The notes under the pieces are model-generated. The model was not told where the DNA came from. It saw only the letters and a program-made list of their open reading frames with translations, and made no database searches. From the NCBI RefSeq assembly GCF_014836545.1, contig NZ_JACSQS010000010.1:1-64000 (forward strand): 64,000 bases of DNA, written 5' to 3'. This document shows, one piece after another, positions 39,650 to 64,000 of the stretch. Source of the DNA: Stenotrophomonas lacuserhaii. Lineage in GTDB: Bacteria; Pseudomonadota; Gammaproteobacteria; Xanthomonadales; Xanthomonadaceae. The stretch's first letter is position 1, and the number at the start of each line of letters is the position of its first letter. The translations under genes were made by a program, and so were the position numbers.

Positions 39650-39874
39650 TACGTGACAAGAACGGACTCGGGTCGGCGCGTTCGCAGCCGAGCCGACTGA
39701 AGTCGGCTCTACACAGCCGCGTAGCTCTCGCGTTCCGGTATCAAGCGGACGACTGAGCCCTGAAATCAGAGCCGGAAGTGCTTGGCAGATTTCGCTCATG
39801 CGAAAGCGTGCCCGCTCCATATGTCGCTTTTGGCGCTACTCACCACCTTCGAAGCCACACAAACTGACGCCCGG

Positions 39875-39903
39875 TTGGATTTCGCCAGAAGTTCACATAG
39901 TAT
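39875..39903 (+). promoter_or_regulatory. Candidate sigma-70 promoter for the RHS operon
   Basis: TTGGAT (39875-39880), a 17-base spacer, then TAGTAT (39898-39903). Both boxes are near consensus and spacing is ideal. The RHS start codon is 65 bases downstream of the -10. The surrounding DNA is lower in GC than the backbone, as expected for an acquired locus. Confidence 0.55.
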
Positions 39904-39967
39904 TCAGCCAATCAACAGCGCAGGGAAGGCGCAGTACGCGCCATGCGTATCACTCGGGGGATTGAGA

Positions 39968-42900
39968 ATGGAATTCTGCGACAAGCGGATGCTGGCTGCG
40001 TCTCTGGCAACAGCGTTGCCTTGGCTCGTCATGGTATTGCCGGTCTTCGGCGCCTCGTCAGACATGGATTCGAGGAAGGGGATTCGCGTACGAAGCGTGC
40101 TGGACGGTAATGGCGGCCTTCCGCCGCCCACAGATTTAGGCCGGGTAACCACTACTGTTCCCGGCATGAAGTCATATCGCGGATTTTCGACCTCGTATCT
40201 CAATGAGATGGGACGTCGAACGGGTATGGAGGCCGGCGCTGGAGCCCGCGGCGCTTTCGTTGCCGCCAAGACCTCCAAGGAGCAGGAAACCGACGACAAG
40301 GAAGACGACTGTCAAGGCAAGGCGGGCAACCCCGTCGTTCTCTACACCGGTAACAAGGTGGAACATGAGCTCGACTTCGCCAGTAATGGCGAGATGGGCC
40401 TTTACCTGCAGCGCACCTACAACCATCACTGGAGCGCCACCGGCCTGTTCGGCCGCCACTGGCTGAGCAATTTCGATTACTCGCTGGTCTACTCCGACGC
40501 CCAGAATATCCTGTGGGCGCAACGTCCCGACGGCCGACGCATCAAGTTCCTGCTCGATACCGCGAGTGGTCGTTGGTACGAAGACAAAGCCCAGCCGGTG
40601 GCCTATATCACCCGCGACGCGAGTGGCGTGCTGACCCTCGTCAACGAAGACCGTGGGGTGGAGACCTACGACGCCGAGGGCTTCATGACCCAGCGCCGTA
40701 ACGAGCAGGGGGTGAAATGGACGTTCGCCTATAACAACCGTTACCTGCAAACCGTTACCCATTCCTCTGGAAGGAAGGTCACCTTTGCGTGGACCAACGG
40801 CCAGCTGACCCAAGTAACGGATCCGGCGGGTGGAGTTTACAAATACACCTATACCGCCAATGCATTCGGCAGTGGCACAGCACGGCTCGCCAGCACCACG
40901 CTCCCCGGCGCGCCTGCCACCACGATCACGTACCACTACGAGGATGCGCGGTTCGCGGGCGGGCTCACCGGAAAGTCGTTCAACGGCGTCCGCTACTCCA
41001 CCTTCGCCTACGACGTCGACAGGCGCGCAACCCTGTCCGAGCATGCCGGTGGTGTGGAGCGCTATACCTTTGGCTATTCCGTGCTGAGCACCGAGGCAGT
41101 GAGCCCGCCACCGGCTCCTGTCGCTCCGGGCAAGCCAATGAATGGAGGCGCCGAACCGGAGGCGCCTTGGTGCGAACCGCGTCCCGGCGGGGAAATCTGC
41201 TACGTGCCGCGGTCCCTCCCAGGCGGTGGCTTTGTGCCCGCAGGCATGAGCGCTGGATTGCCGTTGAACGCAATTGCCAGCACGACGGGGACCAAGCAGC
41301 GCCCGGTGAAGATCCAGGTCACCACGACCAACCCGCTGGGCAGGCGCACCACCACCGCCTATGACGACGGCAAACAGGTATCGGTGGCCGGGGATGCATC
41401 GCCGCGCTGCCCCGCGAGCTTCAAGGAAGCGTCCTACGATGCCAATGGCTACCCGGATCTTGTCCATGATTTCACAGACAACCTTACGGACTACGACTAC
41501 AACGCCAAGGGCTTCATGCTCAAGCGGGTTGAGGCGGTGGGAAGTAGTGCCGCCCGTACCACCCAGTGGCAATGGGATGCCACGACCAATCGTTTAACCA
41601 AGATGACCGTGCCGGGCGACCACGAGGTCACTTACACCTATGACAGTCGTGGCAATGTCGCCACAGTCACGACAAAGAATCTCAGTACCAATGGTCAATC
41701 CCAGCAGAGCCGCGTGCTTCGGTTCACATACACCTATCATTCGAATGGGTTGAAGGCCACCGTCAAGACGGACGGCCCCCTCGCCCAGGACGATGTGACC
41801 GAGACCTACAACGGCCAGGGCGATCTGGCCTCGGTCCGTAACGCGCTAGGCCATCAGGTTACCTACGCCAACTACAATGCCCTGGGCCTGCCACGAAAGA
41901 TTACCGGCGCAAACGGTGAGGTCACTGAGATCACCTATGACGCCCGCGGACGCATTACCTCGCAGAAGCAAAGCATAGGCACCGGCTGGGCAACGTCCAG
42001 CACTACGTTCGACGCCACTGGCAACGTGGCAAGTGTCACCCGCCCGGACGGTGTGACCACCCGTTTCAGCTATGACGCGGCACGGCGGCTGATGCAGGAA
42101 GTGCGTCCGATGGGCGATGGAACCTATGCCTGGACGTACAACAGCTATGACAACGCGTCGAACCTGACCCGGACCGAAGTGCGCCATGCCGACTTCCCTA
42201 TGGGGAGCGCGGTGACCGGTGTGATCGAGGGCATCAATCACGATGCCAACTGGAACTGGTCCATAGGTGGCTGGGCGTGCACCTCCGGATCCAACAGCTC
42301 CATTGACGTTCATGCTTACGCTGATAACGGTGCTCTCATAGGAGGCTTTACGGCGAATCAGGCCAGCGAAGCTGGCGTGGCTGCGGCCTGCGGTGCGAGC
42401 GGAAACAGCTACAGATTCAACATCCCGATCACCCTCGCCCAGCGCCAGGAATTGGGTGGGCGGCGAGTGACTATCTATGGAGTTTCGCCTCAGGGGTCCG
42501 CGCATAACAGGCCCTTGCCTGGTTCCAATAGCTACGCCATCCCAGATGCGCCGGTGGTGGGGCAAATCCATGGCATAGGCCGGGACGCTTCCCTCAATCA
42601 CTATGTCGACGGCTGGGCCTGCGCTGTGGGTTCAGCGTCATCAATCCAAGTCGACGGCTACGCTGAAGGGGGCGTCTATCTGGGTAGCGCGCAGGCCAAT
42701 CAAGCTGGCGACGCTTCCTTGCGAAATACTTGCCAAGCTAACGGAACCGCATATCGCTTCCAGTTGCCGATTACGCTCGCACATCGACAACAATTGGGTG
42801 GTAAGCGTGTCACTGTCTACGGAATATCGCCTCGCGGCCAGTCCCACAACGTAGCGTTGCCAGGCTCGGGCGTTCATGCGATCGCTCTGGCACCCGTCAT

Positions 42901-43657
42901 CGGGGATATTGGTGGAGTGACGCGAGACGAGAACTGGGACTACTTCGTGGAGGGTTGGGCCTGTTCCGTTGGACACGCGGGGTCGATCGATGTCCATGCC
43001 TATGTCGGCGGCTCTGCGGGCACGGGAAGCTTCGCGGCGGGTGGTCGCGCGGATCTGGCAACCGGCCCCGAAGTCGCCAATGCATGTCAGAGCCAAGGCC
43101 AGGCATACCGGTTCCGCTTGCCACTGGACCTATCGACACGTAGTGCACACGGCGGAAAGGCAATCTACATTCACGGAATCTCGCCGTTTGGTCAGCCGAA
43201 CCTCACTATCAACAACTCCGGCACCTACAGCGTGCCATCGATCGTGCGCACGGCGGAGAATCTCAGTTTCACCACAACGCCCGATAACATCACTAACGGT
43301 GAAGGCACCACACTCAGTGCCCAGGTTCGCAACACGGGCAACGTGGTCTGGCATGGCGATACCTACCTCGCATGGGGCTTCATCCATCTCACCGAGAACA
43401 TGCAGCTGGGCGCCCCTGTAAAGCCGGGAGAGACCGTAACGTTCAGTCGCCGTATTTCTCCTGAGAATCCAGGGAACGGCGGTCGCTACTTCGAGTACTC
43501 CGCGCAGATGGCGACGAATGGCACGGCATGGGGCCCACGATCCACGACGGGGGTGGTCGTACACAACAACCTGCCAATCTGCACCGGACGTATCTGTGAG
43601 GATCCGCGCCGCGTCACCCCGGGTGTAGGACTGGACGCCAAGGAAGGAGCTCGCTGA
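39968..43657 (+). CDS. Exported RHS-repeat protein with three 114-aa repeats and a C-terminal Ig-like domain
   Basis: A 1229-aa protein starting [20 protein letters not shown], with a signal peptide ending near FGASS; an upstream frame from 39782 is not favoured. A DUF6531-like entry segment ([18 protein letters not shown]) begins near residue 120, followed by YD/RHS repeats ([22 protein letters not shown]) to about 745. Then come three tandem units with W769, W883 and W997 exactly 114 residues apart (consensus GWAC..G..SSI.V.AY). Last is an Ig-like module (about 1095-1200, [20 protein letters not shown]) resembling NBR1-like domains. It lacks the RHS core, which the next gene supplies. Confidence 0.88.
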
Positions 43658-45909
43658 TGTCCGCATTGACCCTTGCCCTGATGGGCCTGAACAGCGTCGT
43701 CTTCAGCGCGAACTACGAATACGACGAGATGGGGCGTCTGATCGCAGAACGGGGTAACAGCGGTCAGAACGTCCGCTACGCCTATGACGCCGAAGGTCGC
43801 CTGACCCAGGTCACCGACTCACAGAACCGTGTTACACGCATGGAGTACGACGCACGTGGCAGGCTGCTCAAGCAGATCGATGCCGCGGGCGGAACGACCA
43901 GCTTCACGTATGACCTGGGCGACCGGGCGACGCGGGTGGTTGATCCACGCGGACTGGCTACAACGTATGCCTATGATGGATTCGGGCAGTTGTGGCGCCA
44001 GAACAGTCCCGATACCGGCACCACCTCGCATATCTTCGATGCAACCGGTCTGCTCTCCTCAACGACGCGCAACGATGGCTCGAGCACGACCTATGCCTAC
44101 GATGGGCTGGGGCGGTTACTGGCAGCCAGTTCCGATGGCCAGCAACTCGCCTACGTGTACGATGATTGCAGCAGTGGTAAAGGCCGACTCTGTGGTATCC
44201 GTGCTCCTGGGACTGATTCGAACTTTGCTTACAACGCGCAAGGGCAGCTGACCGGAAGGAACGACTGGATCACCCATGGCGGCGCACATACGCAGAATTC
44301 CACCAGCTATGAGTACGACGCGTTAGGTCGGTCCGCCAGAATCTTCTATCCTGACGGATCCGTGGCGAACTACGGTTATGCTGCGGGAGGCCATCTCAAC
44401 TCACTCTCTGTCAGTGCAGGTGGCAGCACCCATGGCGTCATCAATGGCGTGCAACTGAAAGCCATCGGCGCCAGGGCATGGCTGTCTTACGGGAACGGTC
44501 TTGGCAGGGGATATAATCACGATCTCGACGGTCGAATGACCGCCATGTCAGTGAGAGGACCTAGCGATTGGATGAGCTATCTCGACTATGCCTACAGTCC
44601 AGATAACGAGATCGCCCAGATTGCAGATGCACGTACAAGCAGTCTCAGTCAGAACCTTGGCTACGATCAGCTGAGCAGACTGGGATCACTGAGCCGCAAT
44701 GGCGTGCAAAGTCAGCTTTCCCACGACGCGGGCAGCAACTTGGTAGGGATCCAGTCAGGCGCCGATTTGACGCGTTTTGTCATCGATTCTCAAAGCAATC
44801 GCCTGCTGGAAGCTATTGATCCTTCAGGCACCCGCCGCTATCAATATGACGCCTTGGGCAACCGCATCAGCCAGACGCATGGTGCTCGGACGACGACCTA
44901 TGACTACGGCGCCTTCAACCGAATGGAGCGCAGCAACGTCGATGGGCGCGTTACTGATTACCTGCTGAACGCCCAGGGACAGCGCGTCAGCAAGCATAGT
45001 GCGACCAGCACGAGCCGCTACTTCTATGCTGGTCAGAACCAGTTGCTTGCCGAGCAGACGGATGGGCTGTGGGCCAACTACCTGTGGTTTGGTAATGAAC
45101 TGGTGGGTCTGGTGCGCAACGGCAACGTAGTCAACATCCACAACGACCACTTGGGGCGGCCCGAGTACGCAACTGACAGCAACCAATCGGTCGTATGGAA
45201 GGCTTACAACTACGCGTATGGACGGAGCGTCACCCAGGACAGCATCGGCGGACTCAACATCGGTTTCCCAGGGCAGTACTACGATGCCGAGACAGGGCTT
45301 TGGTACAACGGCTTCCGGGATTACGATGCGGAGAGTGGCCGGTATGTGCAGAGCGATCCGATCGGCTTGGCTGGTGGAACTAACACCTACGCGTACGCCA
45401 ACGGCAATCCTATTTCCTTCGTCGATCCAACGGGGCAGGTCGGTCTCCCCGGCGCATGCTATGGCGCCATTGCGGGAGCTATTGGCGGCTACGTATCAGG
45501 CGGTGACGCCAAAAGCATAATTGTAGGTGCTCTTGCCGGTGCAGCCGTTGGTGCGGTGAACCCGTATGCTTCGCACTGGGCCGGTGCAGCAGCTGGAGGG
45601 GCGCTGGCTAGCGCAGCTGGACAAGCAGCAGGCAATATTGCGTCGGGAAGGGACGCGCTCGATGCCGAGAACTACAATGCAGGAGCCGTGGCTGGATCAA
45701 TGGTTGGAGGAGGTGCAGCAAGCTTTGCAGGAAATGCGCTTGTCAAATTCTCCCCTGTTATCCGCCTCAATGTCGTGGGGCGACCGGTGGGCGCGACGAA
45801 CATTTTGAGAACACCAGGTCGGACGGCTGCTGCTATTGCGGAGGGATCGATTACGGGGGCAGGTGAACTCGCGGGATCAACAATCAGCTCTGGCTGCGGG
45901 TGCGATTAG
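43657..45909 (+). CDS. RHS-repeat protein with associated core and variable C-terminal tail (probable toxin)
   Basis: A 750-aa protein whose ATG overlaps the previous stop (TGATG), with AAGGAAGGAG at 43640-43649 as ribosome-binding site. YD repeats run from residue 20 ([14 protein letters not shown]). The RHS-associated core ends at about residue 590 with [20 protein letters not shown] and PISFVDPTG. After the core is a 160-residue tail with Gly/Ala-rich zipper-like stretches ([29 protein letters not shown]) ending GCGCD. The tail position is where RHS systems carry the toxin, but no enzyme motif is visible. The small gene after it is the candidate immunity gene. Confidence 0.88.
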
Positions 45910-49631: not shown

Positions 49632-50582
49632 TCACCCCATCCGCTGCACGGCGGCCTGCTGTTCCTGCACTTGGCTCTGTTCCTGCATGGCCACCTGCTG
49701 CTGCGACTGGCTGATGTGTTGCGCCTGCTCCATCGATTCATGCACGGGCGTCTGCACTGCGACCGCAGTGGGCATGCTGGCGCGCAGGTGCGCGGGGTCT
49801 GACGGATCGCCCTGGACGACGAACACGTTGGTGCCTGCGTGCCCCTGCTCATTAGCCTGGCTGAGCAGCACGTGGTCCACGCGGGACAGGCCGTTTTCCT
49901 TTGCCAGGCAGAACAGGCTGCCGCACATGCGCTCGCTGGCTTCGTCCGGGGTACGGCCGTGGGAGGCGTCGAGTGCCGCAACACCCCGCGATATCTGCCC
50001 GCCCAAGGCCTGGTCATTGCTGGTATACAGCCACTGCTCGAACGTCTGCTTCGGCAACGGGTTTCGCTCTTCCTTGTTGAGCGGGCTATCCGGAAAAGGC
50101 GCCTCAATGCTCTGGATATGCGGAACATTCCTCGCGGGTTGAATGACGCCTTCGAAGTTCTTGAACTCGATGCCGACCGCCTTGGCGTGGAGCCCCGCGT
50201 GGTTGAGGGCGCCCCAGGTGAAATCCGTACAACTGTTGCTGAAGGCGTCGTACTTCGCATCCAGACCGTACCTCACCGGGTCAGCCGAGTACTCGCGGAT
50301 CTTGTTGAACTGCTCTTCGCTGATCTCGATAGTGCGCGCGTAATACGGCGCGACGTAGGTCGAGGTGTCGGTAGTTGCGGGATCGCCTAGATATCCGCCG
50401 CCGGGTAGGCGATCCCCAGGCTGCCAACCTGCGCTGCGCACATCGGCGCCGTGGGATGTCTCCAGATACATATGTCCTGTCAGCGATGTCCCCCGGGACT
50501 CGTTCGGCTGCTCAGGATTCACCATCGGCGTGCCAGGCGCTGCCACGTAAACGGTCAGGGTATATGCGTCATTCTTATCCAT
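49632..50582 (-). CDS. Type IV secretion (X-Tfe) antibacterial effector with XVIPCD; Cys/His N-terminal domain
   Basis: A 316-aa protein. The C-terminal 120 residues are an XVIPCD, the signal recognised by VirD4 of the bacteria-killing T4SS in Xanthomonas and Stenotrophomonas: GLSRVDHVLLSQ (231-242), VFVVQGDPSDPAHLRASMPT (253-272), PVHESMEQ and a glutamine-rich tail. The N-terminal domain (1-190) has GTSLTGHMYLETSHG with H37 and SNSCTDFTWGALNHAG with C118, an order seen in permuted NlpC/P60-like hydrolases. This suggests a peptidoglycan amidase or related enzyme, which is inference. ATG 50582 follows the upstream lipoprotein stop by 2 bases. Confidence 0.88.
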   Translation of the reverse strand: MDKNDAYTLTVYVAAPGTPMVNPEQPNESRGTSLTGHMYLETSHGADVRSAGWQPGDRLPGGGYLGDPATTDTSTYVAPYYARTIEISEEQFNKIREYSADPVRYGLDAKYDAFSNSCTDFTWGALNHAGLHAKAVGIEFKNFEGVIQPARNVPHIQSIEAPFPDSPLNKEERNPLPKQTFEQWLYTSNDQALGGQISRGVAALDASHGRTPDEASERMCGSLFCLAKENGLSRVDHVLLSQANEQGHAGTNVFVVQGDPSDPAHLRASMPTAVAVQTPVHESMEQAQHISQSQQQVAMQEQSQVQEQQAAVQRMG

Positions 50583-50584
50583 GG

Positions 50585-51229
50585 TCACTTCGACTTTCCG
50601 TCATAGGCGATGATCAATTCAGCCGGACTGTCCTTGAGCGCTGGACGATCCTCCAGCAACTCGATCACTACGTGGTATCGGCCAGGCGCGGGCGAGCCCG
50701 CGTAAGCAAGCGCGAGCTCATCATAGATAAGCCCGTCCTGCAGCAGACCAGCCTCGCGCATCATCCCTGTATTGACACTATGTGGCGAGGCCTTGGGCGT
50801 GAAGCCATCAGCGCCAAGCTCGACTCGCTTCTTCAACTCCGGCGCTATTCGCAGAAGGGACACATCAGTCCGCGATTCTCCGTCAAGCTTCTGCAGGCGC
50901 ACGCGTGCTGGCAGCCCTTCCCGCACGATCAGGCTTGACCGCGCAACGATCGCCTTCGGCGTCTCCTCAGCGATCCGAATACCAATAACCAACGAAGAGC
51001 CTGCCAGCTCCCCAGGCGGCGGCAGATCAAACTCCAGATCCGCAATCACACCCGGCTTATCCAGCGCGACAGGCCGCGTCAGCGGCACCCGCGTGCGTGC
51101 GGCCGCCTGTACGGCATCAAGCGGCGCTACGGACGGCGGCGCAGGCGGCGGACCACTACAGGCGGAGAGCACGGCCAATGCGAGAGCCAGCGCAGTGCTT
51201 TGAAGGCGTCCTGATGATGATTTCAACAT
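50585..51229 (-). CDS. Putative immunity lipoprotein (X-Tfi) for the adjacent effector
   Basis: A 214-aa lipoprotein: the signal MLKSSSGRLQSTALALALAV ends in the lipobox LSAC (acylated cysteine about 24), followed by a proline-rich linker (GPPPAPPSVAP). The rest is beta-rich (GVIADLEFDLPPPGELAGSS) with no enzymatic motif. In X-T4SS systems each periplasm-acting effector is encoded with a lipoprotein inhibitor directly upstream, and the 2-base spacing here fits exactly. A periplasmic inhibitor implies a cell-wall or membrane target for the effector. Confidence 0.8.
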   Translation of the reverse strand: MLKSSSGRLQSTALALALAVLSACSGPPPAPPSVAPLDAVQAAARTRVPLTRPVALDKPGVIADLEFDLPPPGELAGSSLVIGIRIAEETPKAIVARSSLIVREGLPARVRLQKLDGESRTDVSLLRIAPELKKRVELGADGFTPKASPHSVNTGMMREAGLLQDGLIYDELALAYAGSPAPGRYHVVIELLEDRPALKDSPAELIIAYDGKSK

Positions 51230-51396: not shown

Positions 51397-52593
51397 TTAT
51401 TGTTTAGAACTATCTTCATTACCGGGTGCTACTGCCCAAATTAGGTAGTCCAGCTCTGCAATGGTCTTGGCCGGATATCCTGCAGGTGCGCGAGACAAGG
51501 CCGCCGCGAGCTTCTGCGCCAAATCGATGTAGCGGACGCCCTCGGGCGCCCGGCGCGGCGGACGGAACCGGTTTTCGGCGAGGAACTGCCTGACGGGCTT
51601 GTTTAGTACCGGATAACGTGCAGGCCAGTGCAGCGAAAGCATTTCCGAAAACCAAGCCTTACGCGCAGGATTGGCTGTCTTTCGCAGGTTGTTGAGCTGG
51701 GTGCGGACCACGGAATCGCGCTCGGCACTGGTCGCATCTAGGATCGAGACGAATGCACGGGCGAGTTCGCAGAAGTCAGCCTTTGCGCCTCTTCTCTCCC
51801 AGCCGGCCCCTTGGAGACGATTGCCTGCTTTCAAGCTCCAGAGCTGATTTATCTGAGCGTAGAAATCAGCGCTGCTCACATTGCCGGCCGCAGCAGCACG
51901 GAAAAGTGCTTGAAACTGGCCTCTGCCCTTTTCGAATATCGCCAGCTGGCCGCGCCTGCGCCTCATGAGCTCCGCAGCGCGTTCGGGCGAGATGTCGGGC
52001 AACTGGAACTGAATAACCGGCGTTGGCGTCTGCGAGCTGTTGGCGGCTGACAGCGCCTGCGGTTGGCTTTCGGCGGTGCGCTTCGGACGGACTTGACCTT
52101 CCTGATACTGCTCGATCCATTCCTCTGAAATCGGCACCGACAGGTTGGGCTCGCACATATCCTCGATCCAGCTCCGCGCAGCAGCAAACTCCCTCGCAGA
52201 AAGGGTGCCGTATACGTTGGCTTCGACGTTGCCGTCGAACGCAGCTCGCGTGAGGTTGGATGAGCCGACGATGGAGCGGCAATCACCACTGGCTGTCTTC
52301 CAGAATATCGCTTTCGGATGAAAGCCAGTGATTCCCTCCGCTGCGCGGAAATCATTCAGCTTGTCCGCAGGCATCCAGTTCAGCAGCTCACGGCAGGCTA
52401 CCTTCCGGGTGATTCCGAAGTCGATCCCGACTACTACGCGTAGGCGCTTAACGTTTGCCGGGGCCGGGATACTTGAATCCCAGTGTGTTAGGTAAGCGGA
52501 AACGATATACAGCTCTACCGCGTCGGCGATGGCCGCTGCATAGTGCTCACGCAGGAAATTCTTCGAGTTCTCATCATGCAGCAGGAGCTTCAT
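51397..52593 (-). CDS. Phospholipase D-like (single HKD) nuclease-type protein
   Basis: A 398-aa cytoplasmic protein. The start at 52593 (MKLLLHDENSKNFLREHYAA) has AGGAAGG upstream. One HKD-type motif is visible: H92 and K94 in GFHPKAIFW, then G110-S111 and N113 in SIVGSSNLTRAA, with E124 further on. A single motif implies a dimeric active site, as in BfiI or Nuc. A helical middle (about 190-250) and a C-terminal domain of about 140 residues (WFSEMLSLHWPARYPVLNKP) may bind DNA. It has no methyltransferase neighbour. It lies in an accessory island, so a role in phage or plasmid defence is possible. Confidence 0.75.
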   Translation of the reverse strand: MKLLLHDENSKNFLREHYAAAIADAVELYIVSAYLTHWDSSIPAPANVKRLRVVVGIDFGITRKVACRELLNWMPADKLNDFRAAEGITGFHPKAIFWKTASGDCRSIVGSSNLTRAAFDGNVEANVYGTLSAREFAAARSWIEDMCEPNLSVPISEEWIEQYQEGQVRPKRTAESQPQALSAANSSQTPTPVIQFQLPDISPERAAELMRRRRGQLAIFEKGRGQFQALFRAAAAGNVSSADFYAQINQLWSLKAGNRLQGAGWERRGAKADFCELARAFVSILDATSAERDSVVRTQLNNLRKTANPARKAWFSEMLSLHWPARYPVLNKPVRQFLAENRFRPPRRAPEGVRYIDLAQKLAAALSRAPAGYPAKTIAELDYLIWAVAPGNEDSSKQ

Positions 52594-52745
52594 GCGTTGC
52601 CCTTCCTGGACTGATCGATCTGCTGCTATCGGCAGCGACAGGCGAAGCTTAAGCATTGAAGCGTCCGCGGTTCAGTTTCGGACCCCACCAGCCCTCTTCT
52701 CCCCACGCTTGCACAAGAGCTCGTGTTTCCTGCTGCGTGCTCAGA

Positions 52746-54339: not shown

Positions 54340-57300
54340 TCAGCGCATGCCCATCGAACGCGCCTGCGCATCCTGCTGTTGCACCTGATCCAGCTGCACC
54401 TGCTCCTGCTGCTGCTGCTTCAACGCTTCCTGCTCCTGCCGCTGACTGACCACTTCCAACTGTTGCACAGACTGTTCAACCGGCGTCTGCGCTGCCTGTT
54501 CTGTGGGTATCGATGCACGCAGGTGCGCCGGGTTATCCGGCTCACCCTGGACAACAAACAGATTCTTCCCTGCGTGTGATTCAGGCGTCGCTTGGCTCAG
54601 CAGGACGTGGTCCACCCGTTCAAGACCGTTGTCCTTAGCCAGTACAAGCAGGCTGGTAGTCATGCGCTCGCTGGTTTCGTCGAATTCCCGCCCGTGCCGG
54701 GCATCCAGCGCCGCCACACCGGCGCGCACCTGCTGGTAAAGCGCGTGGTCGGGATGCTCGGGCTGCAGGGGTGCTGGGGACGGACGTGGCGTCTGTGCCT
54801 CATCGGCAAAGGCAGTGGCTGCTTGCGTGGTCGAAGCAGAGTGCACCGGCTGCTGTGCGGCCTCAATCTCGGGCTGCATGGGCGTATGGGGCGGTTGCTG
54901 GGCACTCGCGGAAGGCACTGGATGCGAAGCAGATTCAGCCGCCGCAATCTCAGTCGGGCGCTGCTGCAACGACGGTACCTGCTGCGCGGTGGTCGCGATG
55001 ATTGAGGCATCGGCACCTGACTCAGGCGCAAGCGGCGGCCGCTGCTGTACGCTGGCCTCCCTTTCCTGCGCAGGCTGCTGCGGGCTGCCGGGAGCTTGGA
55101 CCTGAGCGGCATGGTGCTCTGTAGTTGTGGGTGCACGCGTCTGGGCCTGCTGCGCGCTATGCGCTTCACGCTGGCTCGTCTCCTCGCTCGCCTTTGCGCC
55201 CGCACGCGCATTCTGCTCGGCGTGCAGCTCCTCTCGCTGCACGCGTGGCGGAGCTTGCTGGAGGCGCTCTGGTTCCGCCGGCGCGGCGCCAGGGGGCGCT
55301 GCTGCCATGGCCACCGCGGCGGCCGGCTGGATCGTCTGCGGCGGTAGGGCAGCTGCCGGCTCCGCATCGCGCTGTCGCTCCACATCAACGGCCGCTTGCG
55401 GCGCGTGGGTCTCATCCTGCAGCGGCGTATGCACGCTGACTGCAGCGAAGCTGGCCACCTGCTGCGCTTCCTGCGTGGAAACGCCTTGGCGATTGGCCTC
55501 GCGTAGTGCCTGCTGGTAGGCCTCGCGCTCATCGGGCGACAGCGCGGCGATGCGTAGTTCCGGCGAGTTCGGAACGGGGGCCTGCACTGCCTGCTGGGCG
55601 CGGACCTCACCCAGCGCCTGGCGCAGCTCATCGCTCCCCGTAACGGCCACCTGGCGAGCCACACCATCCTGCCCAGTCTGATAGTGCGCAATGGGGCTGT
55701 CATACCCGTACTGCCCGCTCTCGTTGCGCTGCAGCTGCTGCAGCGACGGTCCGGTGATGCCGCTGGCCTCGCGGGTGCGCTGCACGGCCAGTTCGATCGC
55801 CTGCTGGGTTTCAGGGTTTACGTAAAGATCTACACCGGCACTGCGGTAGCGATGCACAAGCTCATTCTGTTCCACCTGCGCGGGCGACGGTGCCGGCCGG
55901 GACTGGATGGCTGCCAACTCATCCTGCCACTGCTCCAGCGAGGGCTGGCGCATCTGGTTGGTGAGTTCCAGCTCGGCGGCGAGGTTTCCGCTGGCCTGCC
56001 CTTCCGCACCCTGCCAGTGCCCGGCTTCACTACGCTGATAGCGGTGCCCATCCGAGCCGAGGACTACATGCGGGGTGGCCTTCACCGACTCGACCGCTGC
56101 GGGAATAGCAACGCCGTACTGCTGCGCGCGTTGGGCTGCATGGCCTGCCAGGTAGGTCGCCGCCATTGCTTCCTGGCCCGTCGCGATGTTGGATTCAATG
56201 CGCCCCAGCGACTGCTGGTTGAGCTGCTGGGCACGCTCCGGCGTGGCGACCTGGGTTTCGTAAGTACCACGGTCATTGGCGCCGGAAAGCCCGGTCTTGA
56301 CCTGGCGTTCCCAGGCTTGGCTGTCCGGGTTTCGGTGCCAGTCTGCATTGTCCAACCCGCGCTGGTCGCTTGGCTGGGCGGGAATGCGGAAGGGATCTTG
56401 GGGCGTCGGGGTCTTGGCCAGCGCGAGCTCCACCGCCTTGGCGCCCGCCATGGCGCCGAGCTCCTGGGACTTCTCGTAGCTGGCCGCTATGCCCTGCTCA
56501 ACCGGGTTACTCCGGCCATCGGCCGTGCGGTCGATCGCCGCCTGCCGTTCCCAGTTCCGGCCGTTGAACTGCCAGTCCACGCCAGCCTTGTCCGTCTGGT
56601 GGTAGATGGCGCGGTTGTCCAGCAGATCCGCGCCTTTGTCGAAGGCCTTGCTTAGCAGCAGGGCGTCCGCCGCGACCACGGCAGCCGGCACGAAGCCGCT
56701 GCCGCCAAGGGCCATGGCCGTCGAGGCACCGCCCGCCCAGCCGCCCATGTTGCGGGCGATGGCATGGTTGAGTTCGGATTGGGCTGCGGTGGCGTTGCCC
56801 TGTTCGAGCAGCTCGGCCGAGCGGCGGGCGGTGAGTACGGCATCGGCGCCTGTGGCGAGCAACCCGCCGGAGCGGACGAGCGTGCGGGCAGATGCCTCGC
56901 CCATCAGGAGATCGAGGGACGCGGCGCCTTGTTGGCCGCGGGGGACGCGGATGCGGTAAGCAGCCTCCTCGCCAAGTACCTTTTCAACAGTGTGGATGCC
57001 CTGGGTGGATAGGACGATGCGGCCGTCGTGGTGTGCGTTGGCGATGGCGAGGGACAGGCCGCTGCGCTGGAGTTCAATGTTGCCGCCGCGCGTCGGTGGG
57101 CGGCTGTCCACGTGAATCTGGTTGAGCGTGGTGACGATGCGTGACTCTGAACTAGCAACTGCGCCCCAGCCGTGGTCTATGCCGGTGAAGCCTTTCAGGG
57201 CTTCTATTTGTTGGGCGTGGTTTTTGTTGTATGCCCAAGCATTTCGGAAGAAGTCCTCGACTTTTTGATTGGTCAGCGCAGCCGTTTGGCCGAGCGGTGT

Positions 57301-57666
57301 ATTCGTATTCAAATCACCGTTGATCAGGCCGACCTTGACCGTGTCACGTAGTTGCTCGACTCGGTGGACTATACGATCCATGGCGGCCGGATCACCTTCC
57401 AGAGCGGCCCTACCGTCCCTTGTTCTCGCCAAGTCATCCAGGCGTTCCAGCATCCCCTTTTGGTAGGCACCAAGCGGACCGCCATTGTGCGGTGTGACGC
57501 CTAAGGTGTCTGCGAACTGGGGGTTAACAGGGAGGAAAAGCCGATTTTCCGGCGCGTGGATGTCGAACCGTCCAAGCTGTTGTAGCTTGGCAAGCAACGC
57601 GCTGTTCTTCAGCGTCTGCTGCTCAATGCCATGATGGTCTTGGAAGTGTGTCGAGTAGTTGGGCAT
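54340..57666 (-). CDS. Large type IV secretion (X-Tfe) effector: N-terminal AHH-type nuclease, C-terminal XVIPCD
   Basis: A 1108-aa protein. Residues 8-75 match an AHH nuclease: HH at 11-12 (FQDHHGIEQQTLKN), LGRFDIHAPENRLFLPVNPQ and H60 in TPHNGGPLGAYQKGM. A long middle region (90-720) carries a hydrophobic Gly/Ala segment near 310-335 and repeats of the type WHRNPDSQAWERQV and YQRSEAGHWQGAEG. A Pro/Gln/Ala-rich linker follows to about 960. The XVIPCD is at the end (DNGLERVDHVLLSQ, LFVVQGEPDNPAHLRASIPT, then a Gln-rich tail). It should be delivered into rival bacteria to cut nucleic acid. The immunity gene is upstream on the same strand. Confidence 0.88.
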   Translation of the reverse strand: MPNYSTHFQDHHGIEQQTLKNSALLAKLQQLGRFDIHAPENRLFLPVNPQFADTLGVTPHNGGPLGAYQKGMLERLDDLARTRDGRAALEGDPAAMDRIVHRVEQLRDTVKVGLINGDLNTNTPLGQTAALTNQKVEDFFRNAWAYNKNHAQQIEALKGFTGIDHGWGAVASSESRIVTTLNQIHVDSRPPTRGGNIELQRSGLSLAIANAHHDGRIVLSTQGIHTVEKVLGEEAAYRIRVPRGQQGAASLDLLMGEASARTLVRSGGLLATGADAVLTARRSAELLEQGNATAAQSELNHAIARNMGGWAGGASTAMALGGSGFVPAAVVAADALLLSKAFDKGADLLDNRAIYHQTDKAGVDWQFNGRNWERQAAIDRTADGRSNPVEQGIAASYEKSQELGAMAGAKAVELALAKTPTPQDPFRIPAQPSDQRGLDNADWHRNPDSQAWERQVKTGLSGANDRGTYETQVATPERAQQLNQQSLGRIESNIATGQEAMAATYLAGHAAQRAQQYGVAIPAAVESVKATPHVVLGSDGHRYQRSEAGHWQGAEGQASGNLAAELELTNQMRQPSLEQWQDELAAIQSRPAPSPAQVEQNELVHRYRSAGVDLYVNPETQQAIELAVQRTREASGITGPSLQQLQRNESGQYGYDSPIAHYQTGQDGVARQVAVTGSDELRQALGEVRAQQAVQAPVPNSPELRIAALSPDEREAYQQALREANRQGVSTQEAQQVASFAAVSVHTPLQDETHAPQAAVDVERQRDAEPAAALPPQTIQPAAAVAMAAAPPGAAPAEPERLQQAPPRVQREELHAEQNARAGAKASEETSQREAHSAQQAQTRAPTTTEHHAAQVQAPGSPQQPAQEREASVQQRPPLAPESGADASIIATTAQQVPSLQQRPTEIAAAESASHPVPSASAQQPPHTPMQPEIEAAQQPVHSASTTQAATAFADEAQTPRPSPAPLQPEHPDHALYQQVRAGVAALDARHGREFDETSERMTTSLLVLAKDNGLERVDHVLLSQATPESHAGKNLFVVQGEPDNPAHLRASIPTEQAAQTPVEQSVQQLEVVSQRQEQEALKQQQQEQVQLDQVQQQDAQARSMGMR

Positions 57667-57701: not shown

Positions 57702-58337
57702 TTAACGGTTGACCACGTCGTAGAACCAGAGACCGTTGGAATTCTTTGCGTTGACGATGCCTGCGTCCTCTACGGCGTCCTTAAACACCCGATCACAGAA
57801 GACCCCGCCATGGAACGGCAATCTGAAGACGTGCGCCGAGCCCAGCACGTCGCGCTTGAAGGCCAAGCGCACCTCACCCGTGAGACCGTAGTACTTCCCT
57901 TCTTCGTAATCGTCACTTACCACAAGATCGAGAGTGGAAGCTTCCTCGTCGAGGGCATCTACCGTACGGATCACATCGCACAGGAAATAGGTCGGCCCCG
58001 GAGAGCCGTCAGCCAGTCGGTAATCGGTTTCAGCGAAAACAAACGCTTCAGGATCAACCGCTTCCATAACTTGGCGTAGACGATCCGAGACAAGCCAGTA
58101 GCCGCTCATACCACCTTCGAGGTCCTGGGGGAGCACACCCTCTCGCGGGTGATAGACCAAGCGAGGAGTCTCACGCAGCGGTGGAAATCCACCCGTCTTG
58201 GGCTGAAGGATGAGACGCGGTGGCGTCAGCAGTTCCTGCTCATTCTCGAAGATCACCCCGTGGCCCTTCCCACCTCGCGTGGCGTCAGGCTGCAGCTGGA
58301 AGAACTCGCCTTTCCTCGGTTGATTGGTGTTTGCCAT
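57702..58337 (-). CDS. Imm11 (DUF1629) family immunity protein
   Basis: A 211-aa cytoplasmic protein starting MANTNQPRKGEFFQLQPDAT. The central block GGMSGYWLVSDRLRQVMEAV, GSPGPTYFLCDVIRTVDALD and the late GVFCDRVFKDAVEDAGIVNA are typical of DUF1629/Imm11 proteins. Members sit next to polymorphic nuclease toxins and block them. It lies 35 bases upstream of the AHH-type effector on the same strand. Lack of a signal peptide fits protection against a toxin that acts in the cytoplasm. Confidence 0.85.
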   Translation of the reverse strand: MANTNQPRKGEFFQLQPDATRGGKGHGVIFENEQELLTPPRLILQPKTGGFPPLRETPRLVYHPREGVLPQDLEGGMSGYWLVSDRLRQVMEAVDPEAFVFAETDYRLADGSPGPTYFLCDVIRTVDALDEEASTLDLVVSDDYEEGKYYGLTGEVRLAFKRDVLGSAHVFRLPFHGGVFCDRVFKDAVEDAGIVNAKNSNGLWFYDVVNR

Positions 58338-58892
58338 TCAAGGGATCCTATCCGTGTGAAATCGGGCTATTGCTGCGGGACAGATTAACCTGGGCGCCCG
58401 TAGCGAGCCAGTTCGATTGATGCGCGGAGGATCTGGCCCTTGCAGCGGCACTGAACTTCCCATGCGGCAGACTCAGTTCGGGCGGCCTCGAGTCTCTCTT
58501 GAGTCTTAGCGGCTGGGACGGCGTGCACGCATCCTGATCCGATCTTTGGGAGAGCAGACGGCGTTATGAGTTGATCGGGATCGGCTGCGGGACTTTGATG
58601 AGTCAGGCTGAGCTTCTATGCCATCGACCATGCGGACGCTGGGATGGATCGGAAGGAGCTGGGCTAGTACTGCGACCTTCCGGCGAAAGATGCTTCGCTG
58701 GCTTGCGGGAGGATTTGATCGCTGTCGGGTGGATAGGTTTTGACCGCTGACAGGGGCTCTACGGATAGCTAGCAGTTGCGCTCTCGGAAGGTAGCTAGGT
58801 GGGCGACTGCAAGCCAACGCCAGCACCGGATTGCAGCCGTTTGCGACACGAGGTATAGATAGCGGCTATCGGAAATGTTCGGAAGCGTCGCA
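58338..58892. other. Intergenic region with possible decayed coding DNA
   Basis: This 555-base region separates the divergent Imm11 and DUF3578 genes. Plus-strand frames contain fragments (for example FYAIDHADAGMDRKELG near 58614-58664) that end in stops and shift frame, so old coding DNA may be present. I could not assign them to a family. Both promoters must also be here. Confidence 0.4.
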
Positions 58893-59984
58893 ATGGGGAT
58901 CAAGGAAGAACTTGGAAGCGTTCTCGCACTGCAGAGGGAGTACAGCTCTGACCTAAACGAGGCAATGAGAGCCCGCGGTCAATTGATTAGGCACTCTCTG
59001 CCGGCCTCCCTCGCTCTCTATTCGGAAGATATGCGCGTCGGTATCGGGCTGGAACCCGGCGATCTCCTGATAGAGGGTCGTGATGGCCTAGGACGCCGAT
59101 CGCTGGTTCCTTGGGTGCGCTTTGCCTCCAAGAATCTTTCGCCCCGCGCCACGTTGGGTTGGTACGTGGTTTTCCTGTTCCGTGAGGACGGCGCAGGCGT
59201 CTACCTCGCACTGGCGCATGCCTCCAAAGAGGGCGCAGCTGGCGGTTTTGTTGCACGATCGGAGAGTGAAAGGCGACGACTAGTAAGGTGGGCTAGGGAT
59301 CTGCTGATCGATGAGATCGGTACCGACGACCGTCTCTCGAATCAGATGGAACTCGGCCAAGGCGATCTTGCACTCGCGTATGAAAGTACTACCGCAACTA
59401 GCTACTATTACCCCTCGCACGATCTGCCCAACGAGCTTCAAATTTCGAGCGATCTGCGTGCTATGGCGGGGCGTCTTGGACGCATCTACGCCGGTAGGTC
59501 CGCACAGATCCAGACGGGGGAGACCTCCCTAGATGTCATATCCGCCTTGGATGCAATCGAGCTGGCCACATCGGGCCGAGCGTTTAGGGGCCAAGGATAT
59601 GGCCTCACACCTGCCGAGCGCCGAGTCGTTGAGCTACAGGCAATGGCAGCAGCAACTAAGTACTTCTCGTCGCAGGGCTACGAAGTTCAGGACACCAGTT
59701 CTCACCAATCCTATGATCTGAAGCTTACACGGGGGCTAGAGACTGCTTTTGTAGAGGTGAAGGGCACTACCGGCCAACTCGGAGATGTTGTCCTCACTCG
59801 CAACGAAGTTGACCATCATTTGGCCTGCTATCCAAACAACGCGTTGTTTGTGCTGCACGGCATAAAGCTTAGCGACAGCACCTCTGGACCCATCGCGAAC
59901 GGAGGGATATCCAACGTGCAGATGCCTTGGCGAGTAGATCAGGAGCGGCTCCAGCCGATTGCGTACAGATATCGAATCGAGTAA
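58893..59984 (+). CDS. DUF3578 (McrB N-terminal-like) - DUF3883 nuclease fusion
   Basis: A 363-aa cytoplasmic protein. GGAAG at 58881-58885 supports ATG 58893 (MGIKEELGSVLALQREYSSD); ATG 58875 is also possible. Residues 20-150 match DUF3578, the N-terminal module of McrB-type restriction proteins (RATLGWYVVFLFREDGAGVY). Residues 240-345 match DUF3883 (NO VEIN C-terminal) with a PD-(D/E)xK core: SYDLKLTR with D275, then FVEVKG with E288 and K290, and LTRNEVDHH. No McrB GTPase or methylase is nearby. A single-protein modification-dependent restriction or nuclease defence role is the best guess. Confidence 0.82.
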   Translation: MGIKEELGSVLALQREYSSDLNEAMRARGQLIRHSLPASLALYSEDMRVGIGLEPGDLLIEGRDGLGRRSLVPWVRFASKNLSPRATLGWYVVFLFREDGAGVYLALAHASKEGAAGGFVARSESERRRLVRWARDLLIDEIGTDDRLSNQMELGQGDLALAYESTTATSYYYPSHDLPNELQISSDLRAMAGRLGRIYAGRSAQIQTGETSLDVISALDAIELATSGRAFRGQGYGLTPAERRVVELQAMAAATKYFSSQGYEVQDTSSHQSYDLKLTRGLETAFVEVKGTTGQLGDVVLTRNEVDHHLACYPNNALFVLHGIKLSDSTSGPIANGGISNVQMPWRVDQERLQPIAYRYRIE

Positions 59985-60295
59985 AGAGCTAGGATCGAAG
60001 AAGGTGTTCGGTTTTTTGTGTTCGGGCGATGGAGCCCGCCGTCGACGGCCCCTTGGCCTGGATAGTGGGTTGGTTTAGAGTCCGGTGTTATCTTTCTTCG
60101 CCGCCAACTGCGCGGCGTTCTGGCGGAGGAGAGCCCGCCAAGCGCTCGTTTGGGTCTTTCTTCGTAGTAGGTCGCCCCACCAGCTTTAGATGCTGGTACG
60201 GCTATGGAGCAATGTCGGGAACAAGTTCTCGTTGAGGGATTCGGGGAATCTCATAAACTTTGTTTTCGGACATAGCATGTTGAAGAAGAACATGT
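59985..60295. other. Intergenic region before the IS256 remnant
   Basis: These 311 bases of mixed-GC DNA follow the DUF3578-DUF3883 gene. GGTTTTTTGTG at 60010-60020 could be part of a terminator. No matching IS256 left inverted repeat to the right end (near 61618-61645) was found, so the left IS end may be lost. Confidence 0.4.
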
Positions 60296-61571
60296 ATGCC
60301 AACCAAGAAGAAGAAGACGCCACGCCAGACAGCGCGTAACCTGCCAAGGCTGCCGAAGGAGCGGATTGATCAGCTCGCCACTGGGACGATGAGCGCCGGG
60401 AAGATCGAGGACATCTCGGCAGCCCTGAAGATGGCACTGATCAAGCGTGCACCGGGGGCCGAACCTGGGCACCATTTGGGCTACTCCGCAGGCGCAAAGC
60501 TCCGGCCCGAGGCGCGCAACCAGCGCAACGGAAAGAGAGCAAGACGGTACTGACTGACCATGGCCCGCAGCGGTTGGATATGGCCCCTGATCGCGACGGC
60601 AGCTTCCAGCCGATCCTGATCTCCAAGCACGAGCGGCGCTTTGCCGGCTTTGACGACAAGATCATCGCCATGTCCGCACGAGGCATGAGCGGCCGGGATG
60701 TCCATGCGTTCCTGGCCGAGCAGTACGCCACGGAGGTGTCGCCGGACTTCATCAGCTCGGTAACCGACGGAGTTCTTGAAGAAGTGGCCCTGTGGCAGCA
60801 ACGCCCATCGGAGCCGATGTATCCGGTAGTACCTTCGACCCACTGCGTGTGAAGATCCGCGAAGAAGGCCTGGCATTCAGCAATGCGGTCTACCTGGCGC
60901 TGGGCGTACCGCCTGGTGGCACGCGGGACATCCTTGGCATTTGGATTGAGACCACCGAGGGCGCCAAGTTCTGGATGAGGGTGTTCAACGATCTCAAAGC
61001 GCGCGGCGTGGAAGACTAGACCGGCCATACATCCTGATCGCGGTGACCGACGACCTGAAGGGCATGCCCGACGCACTGGCGGCGGCGTACCCGGCCACCG
61101 CCCCGCAGACCTGCATCGTGCATTTGACTCGGAACGCCCTCGACTGCGCGGACTGGAAAACCATAAGCCGCTCGCAGCGCCCCTCCCAGCCGATCTACCA
61201 GGCGACCCATGCCGAGGCCGCAGAACAGGCGCTCGCGGCGTTTGAGGCCGGCCCGCCTGGGCCTCCGGTACCCACCCTGACAATGGCCCTGGCGGTGAGT
61301 TCGGGACCGCGTCGCCCCATTTTTCGTCTTCCTTATGGGAATCCGCAAGGTCATCCACACCACCAACGCCATCGAGAGCGTCAATGCGCAGTTGCGCAAA
61401 GCCATCAAGACCTGAGGGCATTTCCCCACCGATGAGGCAGCGACCAAGCTGATCTGGTTGGGTCCACGCAACATCACGGCCAACTGGACCGGCAACAGCC
61501 ATGGACGGAAAGAGGCGATGAGCCAGTTTGCGGTCCTCTAGGGAGACAGGCTCATCCGCTCGCCTTACTGA
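60296..61571 (+). pseudogene. IS256 family transposase, decayed
   Basis: The pieces in order are MPTKKKKTPRQTARNLPRLP, FQPILISKHERRFAGFDDKI, FISSVTDGVLEEVALWQQRP, VKIREEGLAFSNAVYLALGV, GIWIETTEGAKFWMRVFNDL and [18 protein letters not shown], ending GDRLIRSPY. They fall in different frames (breaks near 60540, 60840 and 61290) and are cut by stops at 61018-61020, about 61413 and 61539-61541. They include the IS256/MULE DDE pattern. At least five inactivating changes show an old, immobile copy. It lies next to the HATPase/receiver pair and marks past insertion. Confidence 0.88.
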
Positions 61572-61778
61572 GAACCCAGGCCGCCTGCCGGCGGCCATCG
61601 TCGCCCGAACCCAAAAAAAGGAGACTCTCCGCGCTTCTCGACAGATCCAAAGTAGGCAGGGAAAGCCACCTGCGTTTACGCACACATCAATTCAGTGAGT
61701 TCAATACAGGGAAGGCATGCGGCGCACAAATCTTCCTCATGAGGTAAAACAAGTGCGCCACATGAGATCGTTGCATGC

Positions 61779-63476
61779 CTACTTCCCAATCTTTCCCAAG
61801 GAGCTAAGCCTCAAGTACTCCGAGTCACTTACACCAATTCTCATCCAACTACCGAGCATGGCGGCCGCCTCACTCACTGCACGCGTATAGCGGATTTCTC
61901 CTATCCATTCGAACTTCGCATTCTCAACGTCACAAAAGACAAACGAATTATTCTCACGCCCGGCCAGAACTCGCTGCATAGAATTATCCGGAGCGAAGTT
62001 GAAGGACCTGATGAATGGTCTTTTTGAATCAATCTCCAGGCATTTCTCGACCGCGCCGGCCTCACGAATAACCAGTCCGTACTTCTCGGCGTTCACCCTA
62101 GCTCTTAGGAACACGAATGCTGCGTCCTCTTTGAGCCTCAACGTATCGCAAGCGGGGGTTAGGCAGATGAGATACTCAATGTCAGCTCCAGCACCCGGCC
62201 TATATGTTACAAGGCTACCTGTCGTTAGGGATGGCCTCCAATGCTCGTCACTTGGAACCTTTGATCGACCATGCGCTTCGCGTTTTAGGGCAACCAATCG
62301 CGCGAATTCATGCTCCGACTGCTTTGATTTCTCGATCGATCCAGCAAGGGAGGAAGAAATCAACCAGCGCCGCTCACGGAGCAGCTGCACGTCCCGGTCA
62401 ATTCCTCTGAACACCTTATCGTCTTTTACGCCACCTTCAACTATCTCCTTGAGCAAGGAAAAGTCAACAATGCTATCTCCCTTCTTCTGCTCGGTGACCT
62501 GAGATTTCTTTGCCTCTAGCCACCCCATCACGGGCCGCTTATCGAGAAATCGATCGGCAACACGCTCCAACCCCAGCGCAGAATCGCACTCAGAAACGAG
62601 CAACTCGCGAATCATCTGAGGCACATCCTCTCTGGGATTAGTTATCGTGTAATTCGCAACATAGGCTGGGTCCAACCATGCTCCGAATCTTGTCAGCATA
62701 TGATGGGCGCTTTTCCTAATCGCCCCCACTGCAGCCAAAGCGAATGACGGAACTAGACCATCTGCGAAATAACCGAAAGCCCTAATTAACTCGGATGGCA
62801 GAAGCGAAACCGGCGTGGATGTTTTGTTCTTCATTACTACGACAGTACTCTCTCCCGCCGCGCAAAAGTCCTGACCTGGCACGTCCGCCAAGGAAATACC
62901 ACCACGCAGCATGGCACTCTTCACATCATCAAATATGCCGTGGCTCAGAACCTCACCTGTGTAGATGCAGACAAGCCGCAACCGTCCATTCTCGCCATGA
63001 TCACGACGAGCTATTTCTTCAACCACTTTTATCGTCACGGATGAATCTTGCGGCTGCAGGTACCAGTCGATGATTACCAAGTCCGAAACCATTGATGCAG
63101 AGACAGCTCGCTCGATTTTCTGCGCAACATTACCATCAGCATCATTCGGGAGAACGAAAGCGCATGCAATACCCCTGGACGAAAAATCATCTGAGATGCC
63201 GCGAACATCTAGCCCGTGAGCGCTTAGCTCAACGACTGGCTCGGGAACCTCTAATGTGGCAGCTTCATCACCAAGACCACTATCGGCTGCAATCTCACCA
63301 GACATCTCTGCTCTCGGTGAAGTTACAAGCTCGGGCTCGTTGTCGATGACGACAGCAGTCTTCAAGAATTCTTTGACCGCGAGGTCGACATGAATATCCC
63401 ATTCCGAATGCGCGTCTACGCATCGACCATCCGCATCCTGCTGCTGCGCGCCCTGGAGATCCGTCTTATCCATCAT
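61779..63476 (-). CDS. Receiver-domain protein paired with a HATPase (predicted conflict-system regulator or effector)
   Basis: A 565-aa protein starting MMDKTDLQGAQQQDADGRCV at 63476; AAGGA 5 bases upstream supports this over the TTG at 63491. The N-terminal third is an unusual receiver: VVIDNE with D45, a long insert, VSDLVIIDWYL with D137 as likely phospho-acceptor, and LVCIYTGEVLSHG. The remaining 380 residues are a large domain with mixed helix and strand (VSLLPSELIRAFGYFADGLV, YLICLTPACDTLRLKEDAAF) and no known effector fold. It overlaps the kinase gene by 11 bases. It resembles the Pfam family named Response receiver domain (Response_reg_2; name from memory). It shows AT-richer, acquired codon use. 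Confidence 0.75.
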   Translation of the reverse strand: MMDKTDLQGAQQQDADGRCVDAHSEWDIHVDLAVKEFLKTAVVIDNEPELVTSPRAEMSGEIAADSGLGDEAATLEVPEPVVELSAHGLDVRGISDDFSSRGIACAFVLPNDADGNVAQKIERAVSASMVSDLVIIDWYLQPQDSSVTIKVVEEIARRDHGENGRLRLVCIYTGEVLSHGIFDDVKSAMLRGGISLADVPGQDFCAAGESTVVVMKNKTSTPVSLLPSELIRAFGYFADGLVPSFALAAVGAIRKSAHHMLTRFGAWLDPAYVANYTITNPREDVPQMIRELLVSECDSALGLERVADRFLDKRPVMGWLEAKKSQVTEQKKGDSIVDFSLLKEIVEGGVKDDKVFRGIDRDVQLLRERRWLISSSLAGSIEKSKQSEHEFARLVALKREAHGRSKVPSDEHWRPSLTTGSLVTYRPGAGADIEYLICLTPACDTLRLKEDAAFVFLRARVNAEKYGLVIREAGAVEKCLEIDSKRPFIRSFNFAPDNSMQRVLAGRENNSFVFCDVENAKFEWIGEIRYTRAVSEAAAMLGSWMRIGVSDSEYLRLSSLGKIGK

Positions 63477-64000
63477 TTGATTCCTTCTCAAATATCCCGA
63501 ACACGGTAGAGTCCCTATCAGAAGAGACGAGAATCAGTTCAAACCCTTCGCGACCAAGAGCTTCCTTGCTGATAGCTAGACCAAGCCCCCTACCGCCGGG
63601 CCGCTGCGTCTCCCCGAGTTCAAAGATGCGATCACGCAGCCTGGCTTCGATAGCTGGCCCATTATTGGACAAAAGAAAGCCCCTGCGGTCAGCGTCCAGT
63701 TTTATGGCCTTCCTCTGAAGCCCACCGACATTTAGCCAATAAATGGCATTGTCTATTATGTTAATGAATGCGCCCACGAGAGCTGACGATCTCGCCTCAA
63801 CTTTGAAAGCCCTAAACTCCATTGAGGCCTCCAGCTCAATTGTCTCTGCCGAAAGCTGATCTTGGAAGACGTTCCGAACAATCTCGATGATCTCGCTACC
63901 CGAAATCGTTACCCTCGAACGATGTAGCCTTCTGCCTAGCGGATCAAGCGCCTTTAAGTACCCGTCAAGGTGCTCGACATGAGTTCTCAAGTTCTTGTAA
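63466..64000 (-). CDS. Histidine-kinase-like ATPase (C-terminal part; gene runs past the window)
   Basis: The visible 178 residues are the end of a longer protein. They contain a helical linker (DGYLKALDPLGRRLHRSRVT) and a HATPase domain: N box FINIIDNAIYWLN, a G1 region read as LSNNGPAI where the usual aspartate of D-x-G is asparagine, and G2 GGRGLGLAISKEALGREGFE. The change at G1 may weaken or alter ATP binding. It overlaps the receiver gene start by 11 bases, so the two work as a coupled pair. The N-terminus and sensor are outside the window. Confidence 0.78.
   Translation of the reverse strand, partial: YKNLRTHVEHLDGYLKALDPLGRRLHRSRVTISGSEIIEIVRNVFQDQLSAETIELEASMEFRAFKVEARSSALVGAFINIIDNAIYWLNVGGLQRKAIKLDADRRGFLLSNNGPAIEARLRDRIFELGETQRPGGRGLGLAISKEALGREGFELILVSSDRDSTVFGIFEKESNDG

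Follow-up and report, generated by a model that had tools for sequence, protein, structure and literature searches.

A predicted single-chain MrcB_N–NOV_C nuclease in an accessory island of Stenotrophomonas lacuserhaii

The window analyzed here, a stretch of 64,000 nucleotides from Stenotrophomonas lacuserhaii, carries a gene (58893–59984, plus strand; 363 aa) for a predicted single-chain nuclease in which an McrB-type DNA-reader domain, MrcB_N (DUF3578/ADAM), is fused directly to a nuclease domain of the NOV_C (DUF3883) type. Both domains are present with their catalytic and pocket residues intact, fold comparison supports the assignment, the protein contains no GTPase, and its relatives are mobile and sporadically distributed. 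The reading that we prefer over a type II partner, at a probability of about 0.5, is that the protein acts as an NTP-independent, modification-dependent (type IV-like) endonuclease.

Results

The open reading frame is complete and stop-free, and the gene is present in one copy in its own genome. Translation likely starts at the ATG at 58893: it is preceded, about 8 bases away, by a GGAAG box, and relatives' proteins begin at this position in the alignment; a start at 58875, yielding 369 aa, is the alternative. Pfam detects two domains only, with PF12102 (MrcB_N) matching residues 21–197 (E = 2.4e-22; 79.9 bits against a cut-off of 25) and PF13020 (NOV_C) matching residues 253–313 (E = 2.9e-8; 34.1 bits against a cut-off of 22.1), both in the 369-aa numbering. 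The DUF3578–DUF3883 fusion proposed in an earlier, sequence-only reading of this DNA is therefore confirmed above the curated cut-offs of both families. PADLOC and NCBIfam assigned the protein to no useful family.

The reader half is encoded at 58935–59465 (plus strand), as assigned by Pfam, residue mapping, and a Foldseek match. The N-terminal domain of E. coli McrB (EcMcrB) flips the base and contacts its methyl group through Y64 and L68 (PMC3874153), and the ADAM/DUF3578 domain has been described as a methylcytosine reader (PMC11090510). The window protein keeps all four pocket residues of EcMcrB (W49, Y64, L68, and Y117). W49, L68, and Y117 are found in 12/12 relatives, that is, in 13/13 MrcB_N–NOV_C proteins with the window protein included, and Y64 in 10/12 relatives (11/13 with the window protein). 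The intercalating Y41 of EcMcrB is replaced in the window protein and is not conserved. Domain, pocket residues, and modeled fold all fit a predicted reader of a modified base. True McrB proteins and HNH nucleases contain a related reader as well; at one actinobacterial locus (L012:9923–17025), an NgoMIV-type nuclease and a C5 methyltransferase (MTase) adjoin a pair of McrB and McrC-like proteins in which MrcB_N is a 38% match to the window protein.

The core of the PD-(D/E)xK half (59610–59858, plus strand) comprises, in the 363-aa numbering, a helix bearing E247, followed by D275, E288-V-K290, and N-E305. D275, E288, K290, and E305 are kept in 12/12 aligned relatives, and E or D occupies position 247; the intact D...E-x-K set noted earlier thus stands, and its conservation makes E288 a sensible residue to knock out. 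The E/D...D...ExK pattern, invariant in 13 proteins, and the structural model point to a predicted nuclease with an intact active site. DUF3883 has been described as a novel restriction endonuclease domain (PMC3710099) and as a presumed type II nuclease (PMC10609329).

Because a phmmer search of PDB sequences with the window protein returned zero matches and a four-sequence profile returned a sole, marginal match (UPF0102; E = 1.2), fold comparison was used. The AlphaFold model, built from eight relatives (mean pLDDT 81), contains two domains predicted with confidence and, between them, a disordered linker (207–236), and the order of elements in its C-terminal half, helix-strand-strand-strand-helix-strand, matches that of PD-(D/E)xK nucleases. 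In a Foldseek search of the PDB, the top match was E. coli McrB-N with modified DNA (3ssc; probability 1.00, E = 6.6e-3). The next matches were archaeal Hjc enzymes (probability 0.99–1.00), Holliday-junction resolvases with the PD-(D/E)xK fold that the C-terminal half of the model resembles. The E-values are modest because any single template spans only one domain.

The protein itself has no AAA+ GTPase, no helicase or GTPase gene adjoins it, and no McrC was found by Pfam among the neighbors scanned in the window and onward to contig position 80 kb, which bears out the earlier claim that a GTPase partner is lacking. The MrcB_N–AAA+ GTPase fusion by which McrBC members are recognized is absent from the window protein.

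Between approximately 48.5 and 67.9 kb, a genus relative has largely different DNA instead, which identifies this region as an accessory island, as had been proposed. To the left of the nuclease gene, Pfam detects an Imm11-family protein and secreted effectors of the XVIPCD type; to the right lie a decayed IS256-type element and then, on the minus strand, a Response_reg_2 gene and the terminal part of a gene for a HEF_HK ATPase. Of the two flanking loci described previously, the effectors on the left were recovered, but the right-hand "defense locus" turned out to be the 3′ end of a paraMORC module. The insertion sequence (IS; 60012–61618), of the IS256/Mutator family, separates nuclease and module; its imperfect 30-bp inverted repeats (83%) begin 28 bases past the nuclease stop codon, and it retains a Transposase_mut fragment (PF00872; 60574–60852, E = 1.6e-19).

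Other genes in this part of the window merit description in their own right. Two genes for XVIPCD (X-Tfes) type IV secretion effectors lie among the minus-strand genes at 49632–50588, 54340–57666, and 57702–58337, and the 1108-aa effector, together with the adjoining Imm11-family protein (PF07791, E = 1.2e-71), forms a probable effector–immunity pair. A 419-aa PLD-like protein (51397–52656, minus strand), with weak matches to RE_NgoFVII, ZacB, and mREase_IV, is a candidate for another nuclease near the paraMORC module. Two successive RHS-repeat open reading frames of 1291 and 750 aa (39782–45909, plus strand) may represent a single RHS protein interrupted by a frameshift or break.

Only the last two genes of the three-gene module (methylase, HEF_HK–GHKL ATPase, and Response_reg_2) fall within the window. 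The Response_reg_2 receiver gene, the last of the module, occupies 61779–63491 on the minus strand (PF19192, E = 1.1e-30), and its product is a possible partner of the nuclease. The 3′ part of the paraMORC-type ATPase gene follows at 63466–64000 on the same strand (PF19191, E = 2.9e-25; HATPase_c_3; HATPase_c); the whole gene spans contig C1:63466–66444 and encodes 992 aa with HATPase_c_3, HEF_HK, and HATPase_c domains. The next gene upstream of the ATPase encodes a 355-aa C5-cytosine MTase (contig C1:66531–67598; PF00145, E = 2.2e-56), outside the window and 6.5 kb downstream of the nuclease. The statement that no methylase lies near was wrong for this reason: the contig runs on past the window edge. 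Judged by their domains, these genes constitute one C5 MTase/GHKL–HEF_HK/Response_reg_2 operon of the paraMORC-module kind. The module ends 1.8 kb from the nuclease gene, with which it is convergent. Besides the module's C5 MTase, the genome encodes two prophage-like C5 MTases, and with three such enzymes methylcytosine is probably present in host DNA.

HEF_HK/Response_reg_2/C5-MTase modules have been published (PMC8011034) and are related to the paraMORCs (PMC2292703). In its main text, the former paper lists MvaI_BcnI, EcoRII-C, HNH_2, and Vsr as nucleases, and not MrcB_N or NOV_C. Fifteen further HEF_HK or Response_reg_2 loci were compared, 13 of which have a GHKL gene and a C5 MTase. Full six-frame translation of the fetched module flanks, in which positive controls were recovered, revealed an MrcB_N–NOV_C protein in 0/13. 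A module with an MTase 70% identical to that of S. lacuserhaii likewise showed no such nuclease. The association between nuclease and module is therefore local rather than conserved, and MrcB_N–NOV_C was rejected as the regular nuclease of paraMORC modules in general. One of these loci (L065) carries an Eco47II-type enzyme, and another (L066:4834–12717) is a paraMORC module with a C5 MTase, GHKL, receiver, Vsr, and a NOV_C nuclease that has a different N-terminal half and is divergent from the MTase gene.

The genome-contig census of relatives was run with a single-sequence query, and the relatives described here are a minimum set. In the sampled genomes, the only full-length MrcB_N–NOV_C protein in 349 Pseudomonadota genomes besides the window protein was in one genome (G645), and none was found in 346 Actinomycetota-type genomes beyond the seed genome. 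Relatives are thus rare in the sampled proteobacteria and actinobacteria; they are also found, often as single genes, on plasmids and mobile elements of Bacillota. When viral contigs and annotated phages were searched with one protein, no relative was returned; prophage copies turned up in alignments.

Several relatives lie close to MTase genes: one forms a tandem with a C5 MTase 161 bp away (L037), one a tandem with an Eco57I-type N6 MTase (L039), one prophage copy is 1.1 kb from a C5 MTase (L084), and two, in a prophage setting, have an N6/N4 MTase nearby (L038 and L085). No MTase adjoins the relatives at L022, in Listeria (L111, L112), on mobile elements of Staphylococcus aureus (L113, L114), or in a Vibrio phage (L115). 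The Listeria and S. aureus genes stand singly, encode approximately 420 aa, and lie beside mobile-element or variable genes. A complete Planktophila genome that has the nuclease (G369) contains zero matches to PF00145, PF01555, and PF02384, and so offers no MTase partner from these three families.

At two Planktophila loci (L010:164–3540 and L011:7753–11125), the relative is divergent from SLFN-g3 (DUF2075) helicase and MazG-like genes, and the same set recurs in Priestia (L008:5079–8397); in Planktophila its MrcB_N nuclease has a NOV_C catalytic half, in Priestia an HNH one. This recurring set looks like an undescribed defense system. A NOV_C-domain protein approximately 40% identical to the C-terminal half of the L039 relative lies between IS26 copies and resistance genes (L116:2805–3941), and proteins of this type are very common on enterobacterial conjugative plasmids (more than 1,100 plasmid records).

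Discussion

A simple model would have the McrB-N-type domain bend DNA and flip a cytosine into the aromatic/leucine pocket, which would tolerate or prefer a C5 or N4 substituent on the flipped base. The C-terminal PD-(D/E)xK domain would cut nearby DNA, probably as a dimer, and cutting would proceed without the AAA+ motor and the McrC nuclease that McrB needs. Putative targets in defense would be phages or plasmids with modified cytosine in contexts other than those produced by the methylases of the host.

Two features place this type IV-like reading ahead of every other single explanation: conservation of the modified-base pocket and the many relatives that stand as lone genes. The Planktophila genome with no match to the three MTase families also counts toward it. 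Against it stand the probable presence of methylcytosine in host DNA and the relatives in tandem with MTases, an arrangement expected of type II nucleases; moreover, the conserved pocket could also serve an unmodified flipped base. McrBC-like enzymes coexist with host methylation in contexts other than their own, and a C5 MTase in the genome is therefore compatible with type IV activity. The single-gene, type IV-like system suggested at the outset consequently keeps its support from pocket and relatives, but the C5 MTase module nearby makes a type II rival serious.

In that rival, which we consider less probable, the protein would be a type II-like restriction endonuclease protected by the C5 MTase of the adjacent module: MrcB_N would read sequence by base flipping, and cytosine methylation would block cleavage, with regulation or help from the paraMORC/HEF_HK and receiver proteins. 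The short distance to the operon end speaks for such a partnership, but the genes are convergent, the IS remnant separates them, and GC content differs (0.57 against 0.51). A statistical link between such modules and type II restriction–modification genes has been reported (PMC8011034), and at L066 a NOV_C nuclease gene lies divergent from the C5 MTase gene of a related module; nevertheless, MrcB_N–NOV_C was absent from the fetched flanks of the 13 other modules, and a module with a 70%-identical MTase also shows no such nuclease. The L037 tandem with a C5 MTase is likewise favorable, but as a general role type II activity does not fit the single-gene relatives or the Planktophila genome. Proximity of nuclease and module may reflect chance clustering within a defense-rich island.

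It is improbable that the protein is a non-classical nuclease whose activity depends on some further trigger, for instance a partner helicase or a signal of infection, or that the gene is non-functional at this locus. The Planktophila relatives and the Priestia MrcB_N–HNH gene, with identical SLFN-g3/MazG-like partners, argue for a trigger of this sort, but the SLFN-g3 helicase was not found in the S. lacuserhaii genome; the adjoining IS remnant could signal loss of function, but the reading frame and every active-site residue are intact. More doubtful still is one regulated system of nuclease and module, in which the C5 MTase would mark self, MrcB_N would read cytosine methylation by base flipping, and HEF_HK/Response_reg_2 would license or restrain cutting, which, if true, would represent restriction under two-component-like control.

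If the preferred type IV-like reading is correct, the protein would be a motor-free, single-chain enzyme with the McrB base-flip reader, a compact McrBC counterpart that ranges across phyla, Pseudomonadota to Bacillota, and is carried by mobile elements. Such an enzyme would also provide a new reader–nuclease pair for mapping modified cytosine and help to explain barriers to transformation and phage infection. A type II enzyme would instead show the McrB reader at work in recognition that methylation blocks. In either case, the MrcB_N–NOV_C architecture would gain a function.

Among known systems, E. coli McrB-N (DUF3578/ADAM; PDB 3SSC) of the type IV McrBC system shares domain family, fold, and W49/Y64/L68/Y117 with the window protein, which differs in lacking the AAA+ GTPase fusion, the McrC partner, and Y41, and in the direct fusion to a nuclease. 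MspJI, PvuRts1I-type, and winged-helix-fusion modification-dependent endonucleases likewise combine a base reader and a nuclease in one chain with no NTPase (PMC3874153, PMC11037411), but the reader here has the unrelated McrB-N fold rather than an SRA-like or winged-helix fold, and the nuclease is of the NOV_C type. The neighboring genes are a textbook member of the paraMORC/HEF_HK/Response_reg_2/C5-MTase modules (PMC8011034, PMC2292703), which associate with type II nucleases, although MrcB_N–NOV_C is absent from the 13 sampled. In the open literature searched (closed papers and REBASE being outside its scope), no characterized single-chain MrcB_N–NOV_C enzyme was found. Single-chain MrcB_N–HNH proteins, for example that of Priestia (L008), join the same reader directly to a nuclease, but one of HNH rather than PD-(D/E)xK type, adjoining MazG-like and SLFN-g3 genes. 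The component domains themselves are already known.
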